Shown: one piece after another, positions 1,569-5,288 of the stretch
Numbering within the stretch: the stretch's first letter is position 1
How the letters are laid out: each line of letters opens with the position of its first letter
NCBI GenBank assembly: GCA_013203065.1
Contig: JABMQV010000103.1
Coordinates: 1-7,815, forward strand
DNA length: 7,815 bases
Direction: 5' to 3'
Source of the DNA: Desulfobacteraceae bacterium
GTDB taxonomy: Bacteria > Desulfobacterota > DSM-4660 > Desulfatiglandales > Desulfatiglandaceae
Translations under genes and position numbers: made by a program
The notes under the pieces: generated by a model
Told to the model about the DNA's origin: nothing
The model's database searches: none
Seen by the model: the letters and a program-made list of their open reading frames with translations, nothing else

Positions 1569-2576
1569 TTACAATACCTCGGCTGCGTCACTGGGAAAAG
1601 AGATCCTCAGTTCATCTCCCACACAGAGACGATTATCCCTCACTTCCTTTCTTGAAAGAAGGATGTTGAGCGGCACACCGATATCGGCTATCGCCCTCAC
1701 ACCGTTATGTTCGTATATCATCTGTACCAGTCTTCCAACAAAGGTGTTTTCTCCGAACACCGGCTCTCCATCAGGAAAAATCATAACCTTTGCGGGATCG
1801 ATTGAGAGCTTCACATCCCCTGTCTTTTCTGTTTTTATCGGAAGATTTATCTTGTCCTGAATCAGGCACGATCTATTCCCGTGTCCATCAGTGATAATTC
1901 TTCCATTGAATAGATTTTGAGACCTTTGAGACGTTAACCTCCCTTCAAAAAGTGAAATTACCCTGCCAGAAAGCCTTGAGGCCTGGGTCAAATTATGGGT
2001 GGTGAATATAATCGAAATCTTTTTTTGGGAATTTATTTCCTTGATTATGTTTTCTATGTCAACCTGGCTCTCCACGTCAACACTGGAGGTTGGTTCATCA
2101 AAGAGCATCACTTTCGGAGAACAGACCAGGGCCTGGGCAATGGCAACCCGCTGTGTTTCTCCGCCTGAAAGGTTATGTGCCTCGGCATCCACGAAACCGT
2201 GCATTTTCACCAGATCCAGGGACTCCCTGATGATCTTACCCCTTTCTCTCTTGGAAACCCCCCTGACCCTGAGGCCGAATTCCAGATTCTTATGGACCGT
2301 GGTCGTGAAAAGAACCGGGTCCTGCTGGACCATAACAATCTCCCGGCGTAAGTATGTCAGATTGTCCCCAACAAAATCGATGCGGGTGTTTCCATAGTTG
2401 AGTTCCCCGCTCGTTGGGGGAACCAGAAGGGCCAGGATTTCAAGGAGTGTTGTCTTTCCCGATCCATTTGGTCCCTGCAAGGAATATATGATGCCCTTTT
2501 CAAGAACCAGTTCCGGTATGTCAAGGACAGTCCTTTCCCCATAAATCTTCTTGAGATGGTTGATCTTATAGAGCAT
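1569..2576 (-). CDS. tupC: Tungstate-type ABC transporter ATP-binding protein (TupC-like)
   Basis: This is the ATPase that powers oxyanion import, probably tungstate, with the adjacent permease at the cytoplasmic membrane. In the 335-residue product the ATPase parts come in order: Walker A GPNGSGKTT (35-43), Q-loop Gln85 before Asp86-Pro87, signature LSGGETQR (136-143), Walker B VMLFDEP with the D-loop SSVD (156-167), and the switch His194. Residues after about 225 form an extra C-terminal region. Its end (about 272-331, from EPVFGENTFVG to LRISFP) resembles a TOBE-type oxyanion-binding domain, which in related importers senses the substrate or regulates the pump. The start codon ATG shares its A with the permease stop (TGATG, 2578-2574), the mark of a translationally coupled pair. 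Tungstate rather than molybdate is inferred from the permease and the tupA-like remnant; molybdate cannot be excluded. Confidence 0.87.
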   Translation of the reverse strand: MLYKINHLKKIYGERTVLDIPELVLEKGIIYSLQGPNGSGKTTLLEILALLVPPTSGELNYGNTRIDFVGDNLTYLRREIVMVQQDPVLFTTTVHKNLEFGLRVRGVSKRERGKIIRESLDLVKMHGFVDAEAHNLSGGETQRVAIAQALVCSPKVMLFDEPTSSVDVESQVDIENIIKEINSQKKISIIFTTHNLTQASRLSGRVISLFEGRLTSQRSQNLFNGRIITDGHGNRSCLIQDKINLPIKTEKTGDVKLSIDPAKVMIFPDGEPVFGENTFVGRLVQMIYEHNGVRAIADIGVPLNILLSRKEVRDNRLCVGDELRISFPSDAAEVL

Positions 2577-3271
2577 CAGACCCTGCTTCTCCCCTGTATA
2601 TGATTGAAGAGGATGTTGATACTCAGGCTTATCAGGAGGAGAACCATTCCAAGGGCCACCCCCAGCACAAATTCCCCCTTATCGTATTCAAGGGCCATGG
2701 CAGTTGTCATGTTTCGGGTATACCCTTTGGCGTTGCCTCCCAGCATCATACTGATACCTATCTCTGAAATGACCCTTCCAAAAGCGGCGATGACCCCCGC
2801 CATTATACCGAAACGTGTCTCCCTGAAGATAACCAGCGCCGTCTGCAACGGGCTGGCCCCAAGGGTCATGGCGGTCTTCCTGTACCTCTCATCCACCCGG
2901 CTTGTGGCCGCGATGGTGAGGGAGGTCACGATAGGAAGAATAAGGATCACCTGCCCAATAACCATGGCGGTCTGGGTGTATAGAAGATCGAGGATCCCCA
3001 GGAGACCTCTCCTGGAGATAAAGGCATAGACGAGGAGCCCGACAACCACTGTGGGTAGCGCCATCAAAGAATTCAGGACAGTGATAACGCCCCTCTTGCC
3101 TCGAAATTCCTTAAAAGAGATCATAAAACCCGTGGGGATACCCAGGAGACTGGCGATCAGGGTTGAGCTGAGGCTCACCTTAAGTGAGACATAGATGATA
3201 AAATAGACATCGGGATTAAACGACCAAAGGAGTAGAATTGCTGACAAAAAACTGTCTATGAGGAATTCCAT
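2576..3271 (-). CDS. tupB: Tungstate-type ABC transporter permease (TupB-like)
   Basis: This is the membrane subunit of an oxyanion importer, of the CysTW/ModB-related binding-protein-dependent permease fold. The 231-residue product shows about five hydrophobic segments: near 21-50 (two possible spans), 62-85, 101-123, 155-178 and 202-223. A PTVVVGLLVY motif (73-82) and the cytoplasmic coupling (EAA) loop at about 134-153, containing MTLGASPLQTALVIF, are visible. The EAA loop is followed by AFGRVISEIGISMMLGGN (163-180), a signature I associate with TupB permeases. The ATG start at 3271 has a poor ribosome binding site. It lies just after a decayed tupA-like remnant, so translation may once have depended on coupling to tupA. 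The permease and the ATPase are intact, so the importer could still work with a binding protein made elsewhere. Confidence 0.87.
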   Translation of the reverse strand: MEFLIDSFLSAILLLWSFNPDVYFIIYVSLKVSLSSTLIASLLGIPTGFMISFKEFRGKRGVITVLNSLMALPTVVVGLLVYAFISRRGLLGILDLLYTQTAMVIGQVILILPIVTSLTIAATSRVDERYRKTAMTLGASPLQTALVIFRETRFGIMAGVIAAFGRVISEIGISMMLGGNAKGYTRNMTTAMALEYDKGEFVLGVALGMVLLLISLSINILFNHIQGRSRV

Positions 3272-3423: not shown

Positions 3424-4359
3424 TCATCCCGCTTTTTCGCCTTCCGCCTCCTGCGGCAATACCATCTTTCCGCACAGGCTCAGATCGTAACCCGCCAGAT
3501 CCTCTGCCTGTTTTCTAAACTCGCTTTCGTGGAGGAGATTTAAGAACAGCTGTACCCCTTTTTCAAAAAACCGATCTTTAAGAATAAGGAAATCAAAACG
3601 CTCCCAGCGCAAGGGAATAAAGTCAAGATCCAGGAGGCCTGCCACGGCCCTTATGGCCGGACCCAGATCCGCCCTACCCGAAAGGACCTCCAGACCAACA
3701 TCCAGGTGCCGCTGCAGTTCCCGGTGATACCCTTGAATCTTATCCCCCTCAATGCCGGCCCCCTCAAGCTCTTTGTCAAAAAGCAGCCGGGTACCTGTGC
3801 CCAAAGGCCGATTGACGACCTTTAAGCCGTGACCTGTCAGATCCCCAACCCCTTTAATCCCTTTAGGATTTCCCTTTGCCAGCAGGAAGCCCTGTTCCCG
3901 CTTGCAAAAGTTCACGACCCCGGGCAATTGTCCCAGTTCCTCTTTGGCAAAACCCAGGTTGTATTCCTGGGTATTTTGCTGAAGCAGATGACTTGTGGCC
4001 ATATGGCAAAGATTTCGCCTGAGCGCCCGGATCCCCCCGAGGCTTCCCAGGTTTCCAAAGACCGCCACATGCCCCGGGTGACGGTCGTTGAAAAGCGAAA
4101 TCGTCTTGTCCAACAGGATATCATTACTCCCGCCTATAATGAGCAGCCCTTGATAAGCAGGCAAAGGATCCGTTGTTTCAGGGTAGTTAATGGTCTCATT
4201 TTCCAGCCATTGCTCCACAAGGTGAAGGGGAAAAAGCCACTTCCCTGTCACTTTGGTTGCCGGGAGTCCCTTTTCTGCGATGAGGGCGTAGACCATCTTT
4301 TCGTTAATATTTAGAAATTGTGCAACCTCCCGGGTGCTAAGAAATCTTGTCTCTCCCAT
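3424..4359 (-). CDS. Helix-turn-helix regulator with periplasmic-binding-protein-like sensor domain
   Basis: This is a one-component cytoplasmic regulator, 311 residues. Residues 5-53 form an excisionase/MerR-type helix-turn-helix (FLSTREVAQFLNINEKMVYAL, then GLPATKVTGKWLF and the recognition wing ending VEQWL). Residues about 70-295 form a PBP-like domain of the PF12727 type, the fold of ModA/TupA-like binding proteins, with a NRPLGTGTRLLFDKEL motif (183-198) typical of that domain. No signal peptide precedes it, so it senses ligand inside the cell. Proteins of this build commonly sit next to molybdate or tungstate uptake genes and probably respond to the oxyanion or to the cofactor, which is an inference here. 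The ATG at 4359 has a strong GGAGG (4373-4369) nine bases upstream. The frame is complete and its end abuts the tupA-like remnant. Confidence 0.85.
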   Translation of the reverse strand: MGETRFLSTREVAQFLNINEKMVYALIAEKGLPATKVTGKWLFPLHLVEQWLENETINYPETTDPLPAYQGLLIIGGSNDILLDKTISLFNDRHPGHVAVFGNLGSLGGIRALRRNLCHMATSHLLQQNTQEYNLGFAKEELGQLPGVVNFCKREQGFLLAKGNPKGIKGVGDLTGHGLKVVNRPLGTGTRLLFDKELEGAGIEGDKIQGYHRELQRHLDVGLEVLSGRADLGPAIRAVAGLLDLDFIPLRWERFDFLILKDRFFEKGVQLFLNLLHESEFRKQAEDLAGYDLSLCGKMVLPQEAEGEKAG

Positions 4360-4515: not shown

Positions 4516-4545
4516 TTGACAGATGACTTACTTTACAAATATATC
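4516..4545 (+). promoter_or_regulatory. Candidate sigma-70-type promoter
   Basis: A perfect TTGACA (4516-4521) is followed, after 18 bases, by TATATC (4540-4545); overlapping ATATAT gives a 17-base option. Transcription would start near 4552 and read through the short ORF into the selenoprotein gene. The TTG of the -35 box is also a possible start codon of the short ORF, so the two readings compete. If this is the promoter, the ORF must start later (ATG 4558) and would have almost no leader. Confidence 0.4.
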
Positions 4546-4734
4546 TCTGTTACTTTTATGGATACATCTGCGTTCGAGCAGGGCAGAAAATGTTTCGACC
4601 TGTGCGGTGAACAAATAGCTTTTGTTGAAAATTCTGCAGGTTATCTAACCGCTCAATTCGAAATGTTTCAGGATGTCCTGGATTTCAAACGGGTGATATC
4701 ACGAGAATTTATTGACGGTAAACCCGAGGAGTAA
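4516..4734 (+). CDS. Short hypothetical protein, start uncertain
   Basis: The frame is open from a TAG at 4501-4503 to TAA 4732-4734. It can start at TTG 4516 (72 residues) or at ATG 4558 (58 residues, beginning MDTSAFEQGRKCFDLCGEQ). Neither has a good Shine-Dalgarno sequence, and the TTG is part of a TTGACA that looks like a promoter -35 box. The product is soluble and acidic, with Cys-x3-Cys near the N-terminus of the shorter form, and ends FIDGKPEE. I recognise no family. It reads in the same direction as the selenoprotein gene 77 bases downstream and might share its transcript. It could equally be a decayed or spurious frame. Confidence 0.35.
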   Translation: MTDDLLYKYISVTFMDTSAFEQGRKCFDLCGEQIAFVENSAGYLTAQFEMFQDVLDFKRVISREFIDGKPEE

Positions 4735-4800: not shown

Positions 4801-4805
4801 GGAGG
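4801..4805 (+). promoter_or_regulatory. Shine-Dalgarno site deciding the GTG start of the selenoprotein gene
   Basis: GGAGG preceded by AAAA, six bases before GTG 4812-4814. It favours this start over the in-frame ATG at 4794, which lies upstream of the site. It also shows that a ribosome is recruited well upstream of the UGA codon, which would be pointless if the gene began at ATG 4938. Confidence 0.8.
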
Positions 4806-4811
4806 ATCATA

Positions 4812-5288
4812 GTGAATCCACAAGAAATGAGAGAAAGAGCCATCGAGTTGTTTGCAAAACGATTCCACTGAAGTCAGGTAATCCTGGCAGTTGGTCAGGA
4901 AAAACTGGGTACGGTCAATGAAGCCGTTATCAAGGCCATGGGCGCATTTGGCGGCGGGGTTGCCAGTTCAGGAAATGTCTGTGGCATCCTTTCGGGCGGG
5001 GTGGCCCTGATTTCAGGTATCTACAGCAGGGGGAACCTTGAGGAAAAAGATGACCCTCGCATGTGGCGTTTGAGTTACAAGCTATTCAAGATATTTGAGG
5101 GTCTCACCGAACCTTACGGGGGCATCAATTGCAGGGATATTGCCAGAGTGGATTGGAGAGACAGGGAAGCCACCAAGGACTTTTACAAAAACCCTGAAAG
5201 CCGCCACAAAATATGCGCCCAGTTGGTGGGTGATGTTGCATTCGCCCTGGGTGAAATCCTGGACAAGGACGCTGAAACAGCCTCCTGA
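4812..5288 (+). CDS. C-GCAxxG-C-C family selenoprotein (in-frame UGA read as Sec20)
   Basis: The frame from GTG 4812 to TGA 5286-5288 gives 158 residues if TGA at 4869-4871 is read as selenocysteine. Its four conserved redox positions are Sec20 (in H-U-S-Q, the first Cys of the family), Cys57 (NVCGILSGG), Cys107 (GGINCRD) and Cys135 (KICAQLVGD). Upstream of the UGA, ERAIELFAKRF matches the usual amphipathic N-terminus of the family, where C-S-Q follows about twenty residues in. Downstream, VILAVGQEKLG and AFGGGVASSGNVCG continue the family pattern without a break. The family is thought to be redox-active; its substrate is not known, and some members are annotated as selenoproteins. A conventional call would start at ATG 4938 and lose the first 42 residues, including Sec20. 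Sec insertion needs SelA-D, none of which lies in this window. A nonsense mutation of a Cys codon (TGC or TGT to TGA) is the alternative. Confidence 0.8.
4882..4900 (+). promoter_or_regulatory. Candidate bacterial SECIS element
   Basis: TCCTGGC (4882-4888) pairs with GTCAGGA (4894-4900) over seven pairs, one of them G-U, closing a five-base loop AGTTG. The hairpin starts ten bases after the UGA. Its loop guanine (4890) is 19 bases past the last base of the UGA and in the second loop position, as expected of the short SECIS hairpins that bind SelB in bacteria. It lies within codons of the protein, again as expected. Identification is by eye, without energy calculation. Confidence 0.6.

Follow-up and report, generated by a model that had tools for sequence, protein, structure and literature searches.

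Selenoproteins of the C_GCAxxG_C_C family (PF09719) have already been reported. The tables of PMC13188914 contain two of them as 'form 1' and 'form 2', and one row in PMC9312934 is devoted to a selenoprotein of this family. The gene analyzed here lies at 4812..5288 on the plus strand of contig JABMQV010000103.1 of a Desulfobacteraceae bacterium (GCA_013203065.1). The whole stretch of 7,815 nucleotides is referred to as the window. As PF09719 selenoproteins are in print, the gene does not represent a new class and is an addition to a known selenoprotein family, which agrees with an earlier note made from the letters of this DNA alone. The same note had proposed a selenoprotein hidden by an in-frame UGA. 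This proposal is strongly supported by the conservation of the UGA, the exchange of cysteine (Cys) and selenocysteine (Sec) at its position, a hairpin following it and the selenocysteine machinery of related genomes. Judged from these comparisons, the gene almost certainly encodes a selenoprotein.

Reading frame and codon 20

The gene starts with GTG and ends with a UGA stop (5286-5288), giving a product of 158 residues. The likely ribosome-binding site is a GGAGG at 4801..4805 (+), six bases 5' of the GTG, and a purine-rich stretch directly 5' of the start codon was also present in those relatives compared at codon level. Direct reading of the sequence confirmed that one frame follows this start and that its sole interruption is the TGA at 4869..4871 (+). 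On the basis of the TGA/TGC pattern in related loci, this TGA is proposed to be selenocysteine codon 20 (RFH-U-SQ). The product possesses only three cysteines, Cys57 (NVCG, 4980..4982, +), Cys107 (INCRDI, 5130..5132, +) and Cys135 (KICAQL, 5214..5216, +). All three are intact, as the earlier note had stated, and invariant across 47 aligned sequences. The residues at 20, 57, 107 and 135 form no CxxC or UxxC motif, and no CxxCH haem-binding motif was found within the 158 residues. The product is probably cytoplasmic, since no obvious signal sequence and no leader or twin-arginine translocation (TAT) motif was seen by eye.

For profile scoring of the read-through product, Cys was put in place of Sec at residue 20. 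Residues 18-148 matched PF09719 with 77.6 bits against a gathering cut-off of 27. The C-GCAxxG-C-C subfamily model of NCBIfam, TIGR01909, gave 44.5 bits, which is under its curated cut-off of 47.4; the Cys relative P0007 passes this model with 62.5 bits. The PF09719 match and the TGC or Cys of relatives place the TGA on the first conserved cysteine of the family with family-like sequence on either side, as had been claimed.

A protein search yielded 514 relatives, and 120 of these were aligned with the query and counted. Position 20 is reached by 63 of the 120 listed homologues, 59 with Cys and four with Trp (P0019, P0072, P0089 and P0102). The Trp in these four is most simply a UGA called as Trp by the gene caller. 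The remaining 57 begin after position 20, and the window gene thus appears as one of many selenoprotein genes shortened by annotation. These 57 include P0002, the entry for the window product itself. Misannotation as a 116-residue fragment had been expected; this holds for the open reading frame (ORF) finder, which gives 116 residues from ATG 4938, but the protein database holds a 134-residue fragment starting 3' of the TGA.

Among 51 related genome loci, codon 20 was found to be TGA in 43 and TGC (Cys) in eight, so the TGA of the window is not there by chance. Together with the Cys of the listed proteins, these counts bear out the alignment at residue 20 suggested earlier as a check. By their titles, 46 of the 51 loci are Desulfo-, Syntrophobacter- or other deltaproteobacterial, four are from Proteobacteria/Pseudomonadota and one is from an uncultured bacterium. 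The Sec and Cys labels need four changes on the tree, at least three of them forced by supported branches; the tree is unrooted and no direction is claimed. None of the viral contigs searched encodes a relative of the window protein, and a DNA pattern search matched five viral stretches.

Codons 1-19 of the window gene were compared with those of eight of the 51 loci, each pair offering some 10-12 silent sites. Locus L021 showed no replacement change and one silent change. For L001, the replacement changes per site (pN) were 0.07 and the silent changes per site (pS) 0.67, while L002-L005, L008 and L010 showed pN of 0.13-0.22 and pS of 0.38-1.01. As replacement changes per site were fewer than silent ones in all eight loci, the stretch before the UGA behaves, by this rough measure, as protein-coding. 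A decaying gene without selection before the UGA, the outcome that the earlier note had named as contrary to its proposal, was not seen in the relatives.

Hairpin and selenocysteine machinery

A hairpin at 4882..4900 (+) is proposed as a bacterial selenocysteine insertion sequence (SECIS). It is composed of a 7-bp stem (4882-4888/4894-4900) and the loop AGUUG (4889-4893), and the distance from UGA to loop is 17 nt. For bacterial SECIS elements, PMC13188914 gives the rule that a small apical loop, carrying G within its first two positions, follows the UGA at a distance of 16-37 nt, and the window hairpin conforms to this rule in loop and distance. No Rfam family was matched in the window. The 43 TGA loci and the window were taken as 44 Sec genes and compared with the eight Cys genes. 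G occupies loop position 2 in all 44 Sec genes. All seven stem pairs are formed in 22 of the 44 Sec genes and in none of the eight Cys genes (Fisher p 0.008, kinship ignored). Resampling of synonymous codons revealed that the Sec genes pair beyond the demand of the protein sequence (0 of 2000 resamples as high), while the Cys genes show no such excess (1838 of 2000 as high). Repeating the resampling on representatives (29, 14 and 6 genes) gave 0, 0 and 9 of 2000 as high.

The machinery for selenocysteine was assessed in 14 genomes of relatives, which carry 14 of the 51 loci, and in 14 control genomes. The selB gene was over cut-off in 13 of the 14 relatives' genomes and in two of the 14 controls. 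Matches to tRNA-Sec of 67.2 to 78.5 bits were found in all 14 relatives' genomes; the model also passed in five of the 14 controls, therefore weaker tRNA-Sec matches mean little. Among three genomes searched, selA was present in all and selD in two, and one TGA interrupts each of the two selD genes over cut-off. The genome of the nearest relative (G001, carrying L021) contains selA, selB, selD and tRNA-Sec. Absence of sel genes, the other contrary outcome named earlier, was thus not seen in the relatives. The 2.6 Mb genome carrying L001 (G002) has tRNA-Sec and selA but lacks a complete selB and any selD match, and is perhaps an incomplete metagenome-assembled genome (MAG). Eight PF09719 matches were observed in G001, of which one contains an inner TGA.

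Other explanations of the in-frame TGA were weighed against these data. That the gene is a pseudogene, or that codon 20 was misread in sequencing, has nothing in its favour besides the single stop codon. The recurrence of this TGA in 43 of the 51 loci, which come from many genomes, and the protein-level conservation on both sides of it refute this explanation in practice, and its probability is negligible. Translation could also start 3' of the TGA, the real protein being a fragment of 116 to 134 residues, and such fragments are indeed common in databases (57 of the 120 listed homologues). This was rejected as extremely improbable, because codons 1-19 are conserved as protein, 59 of the 63 listed homologues that extend this far have Cys directly in front of SQ, and the relatives compared retain both the start codon and the ribosome-binding site. 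Reading of UGA as tryptophan in another genetic code would fit the W at the site in four of the 63 homologues, but the other 59 have Cys, the window gene itself ends in UGA, and relatives carry sel genes and tRNA-Sec. On these grounds Trp decoding was likewise dropped as having hardly any probability.

Split-Soret relationship and the place of Sec20

The window product shows whole-domain homology with split-Soret cytochrome c and shares the all-helical fold of its haem-free domain. The structure of this cytochrome, 1h21, comes from a publication whose title names a 'novel iron centre'. Because of this homology and the iron centre, the four conserved positions are proposed to hold an iron centre, and by analogy the balance tips slightly towards Sec20 being one of its ligands. 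In the predicted model, Sec20, Cys57, Cys107 and Cys135 are all situated at or near helix starts, a location which is common for metal ligands. Cys57 and Cys135 correspond to Cys133 and Cys218 of a split-Soret homologue, L102. Cys107 corresponds to its Cys194 in one profile alignment and is one column off in a second. In the 1h21 chain, the four positions fall on Cys44, Cys86, Cys147 and Cys171 by the numbering used here.

Split-Soret homologues were searched in 395 genomes drawn from the phylum of G007, one of the 14 relatives' genomes, and no more than six candidates were scored in each genome. The search gave 57 matches in 49 genomes. Inner stops were found as one TGA in five rows, two TGA in one row, and TAA or TAG in two rows. 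In four of the 57 matches (G007:C39, G157:C8, G144 and G381) the TGA coincides exactly with the position of the first conserved cysteine. The single TGA of G292 and the two of G007:C37 lie beyond the end of the domain and were dropped as Sec sites. The four homologues are L102 (G157, 258-1118, +), L104 (G144, 301-1185, +), L105 (G381, 212-1228, +) and L106 (G007, 338-1189, -); L106, L104 and L105 are 78%, 45% and 28% identical to L102, respectively. L102 and L106 possess a 7-bp hairpin with a 4-base loop starting GG, 20 nt after the UGA, as seen without a null, while the region after the UGA folds less neatly in L104 and L105. The genomes of all four contain selB and tRNA-Sec, and G007 additionally carries a Sec member of the window's family, L008. 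The four are candidate selenoproteins by sequence, and some haem-protein relatives with the same fold thus appear to make the same Cys to Sec swap at the same place. A literature search of accessible papers found no Sec in split-Soret cytochrome homologues in print, and the word 'Soret' does not occur in PMC13188914.

A different role for the selenium would be a metal-free one, in which Sec20 is a catalytic selenol cycling with one of the three cysteines through a selenenyl-sulfide. The Pfam name of the family, 'putative redox-active protein', agrees with this role, and thiol-redox motifs, UxxC for instance, occur in many of the bacterial selenoproteins that PMC13188914 tabulates. The window product has neither CxxC nor UxxC, and its homology runs over the whole domain to a cytochrome with a 'novel iron centre'. 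The place of the four residues at or near helix starts is again what is common for metal ligands. The metal-free role is therefore the less probable of the two, though a serious candidate, and Sec as an iron-centre ligand is favoured by the fold and by the split-Soret homologues over the selenol/thiol pair of the earlier note.

Several observations weigh against a selenoprotein with an iron centre. The window hairpin taken alone is unremarkable, as seven pairs occur in 20% of synonymous resamples; a separate calculation gave z -1.81. Folding energy is under its null in Sec and Cys genes alike and does not separate the classes. Covariation is weak, with one pair changed on both sides, and 71 of 500 shuffles pair equally well. 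The pN and pS before the UGA are rough at so few silent sites per pair, and the sel genes were assessed in the genomes of relatives, not in the window's own. With regard to the iron centre, plain Foldseek against the PDB gave no match at E <= 0.001, and 1h21 surfaced only in a second alignment of the Foldseek candidates. Moreover, 1h21 has further cysteines, for example 29 and 155, and among the first 14 relatives' genomes split-Soret matches were found in G007 only (four matches).

With these points considered, a haem-less selenoprotein with an iron centre at Sec20, Cys57, Cys107 and Cys135, working in electron transfer or redox sensing, is regarded as reasonably probable. The window gene would be translated into a 158-residue haem-less protein, SelB and tRNA-Sec inserting selenocysteine at UGA20 with the aid of the hairpin 17 nt downstream, while the UGA at codon 159 would terminate translation. 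The most likely role of Sec20 and the three cysteines would be to bind an iron centre, probably of the iron-sulfur type, in which Sec is one of the ligands. In sulfate-reducing-type bacteria the protein may act in electron transfer or as a redox sensor. More tentatively, and a little short of being probable, natural Sec may be a ligand of the split-Soret-type iron (iron-sulfur) centre at the same position in haem-less stand-alone proteins and in haem-carrying homologues.

Neighbouring genes and comparison with known systems

A tungstate-type ATP-binding cassette (ABC) transporter ATPase and permease (TupC-/TupB-like, under the equivalog cut-offs) is encoded at 1569-3271 (-) of the window. It is adjoined by a helix-turn-helix/periplasmic binding protein (PBP)-like regulator at 3424-4359 (-), and no plain substrate-binding protein was found among the nine window ORFs scanned. 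The nearest locus, L021, from a Desulfobacteraceae MAG, keeps the gene order of the window, and six neighbour proteins are 92-99% identical. The other loci share with the window's neighbours only ABC ATPases of 23-35% identity. On the available DNA, ORFs of at least 100 residues are present upstream of 40 and downstream of 40 of the 44 Sec genes; 10 of the 40 upstream and 5 of the 40 downstream ORFs share the strand of the Sec gene and lie no more than 100 nt away. As close matches to the window's neighbours are confined to L021 and near neighbours on the same strand are few, the transporter is probably not a partner of the selenoprotein gene. A 72-codon ORF upstream of the gene (4516-4734, +) has no Pfam or NCBIfam match and may not be a gene. 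In L062, a PF09719 paralogue (1459-1956, -) is situated between radical S-adenosylmethionine-like and methyltransferase-like ORFs, as judged by eye, a context different from that of the window's gene.

The solved relative with an iron centre makes the family a direct test case for Sec as an iron-centre ligand, and the Cys orthologues are ready controls. Sec is known as a ligand of molybdenum, tungsten or nickel (PMC10779653), and Sec in predicted iron-sulfur proteins is already tabulated in PMC13188914, so the idea of a Sec ligand is not unprecedented. Literature searches for Sec as ligand of an iron-sulfur cluster gave no paper in one case and only partly followed listings in the others. The metal idea is also not wholly new, since a proteomics table in PMC8322314 labels another family member 'putative FeS cluster-binding'. 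A family member is further listed among the acetone-grown proteins of Desulfococcus biacutus (PMC4103992).

Among the described systems, form 1 and form 2 of PMC13188914, represented by MGD8741185.1 and WP_012158890.1 respectively, belong to the same Pfam family and, like the window gene, are prokaryotic and selenoproteins; the table passages do not state the Sec position. The named selenoprotein model NF045501 (HUGP/GUXX-star fusion selenoprotein) matches residues 4-146 of the window product with 47.9 bits, far under its curated cut-off of 325, and the rest of its 236 positions is unmatched. The best NCBIfam match is NF045669 (DVU_1555 family C-GCAxxG-C-C protein), yet its 84.3 bits are under the curated cut-off of 103. 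Split-Soret cytochrome c (1h21; NF047622) resembles the window product in fold and homology over the whole domain, and the four conserved positions correspond. Unlike this cytochrome, the window product is without CxxCH and without a leader or TAT motif, and it would carry Sec at the first of the four positions.
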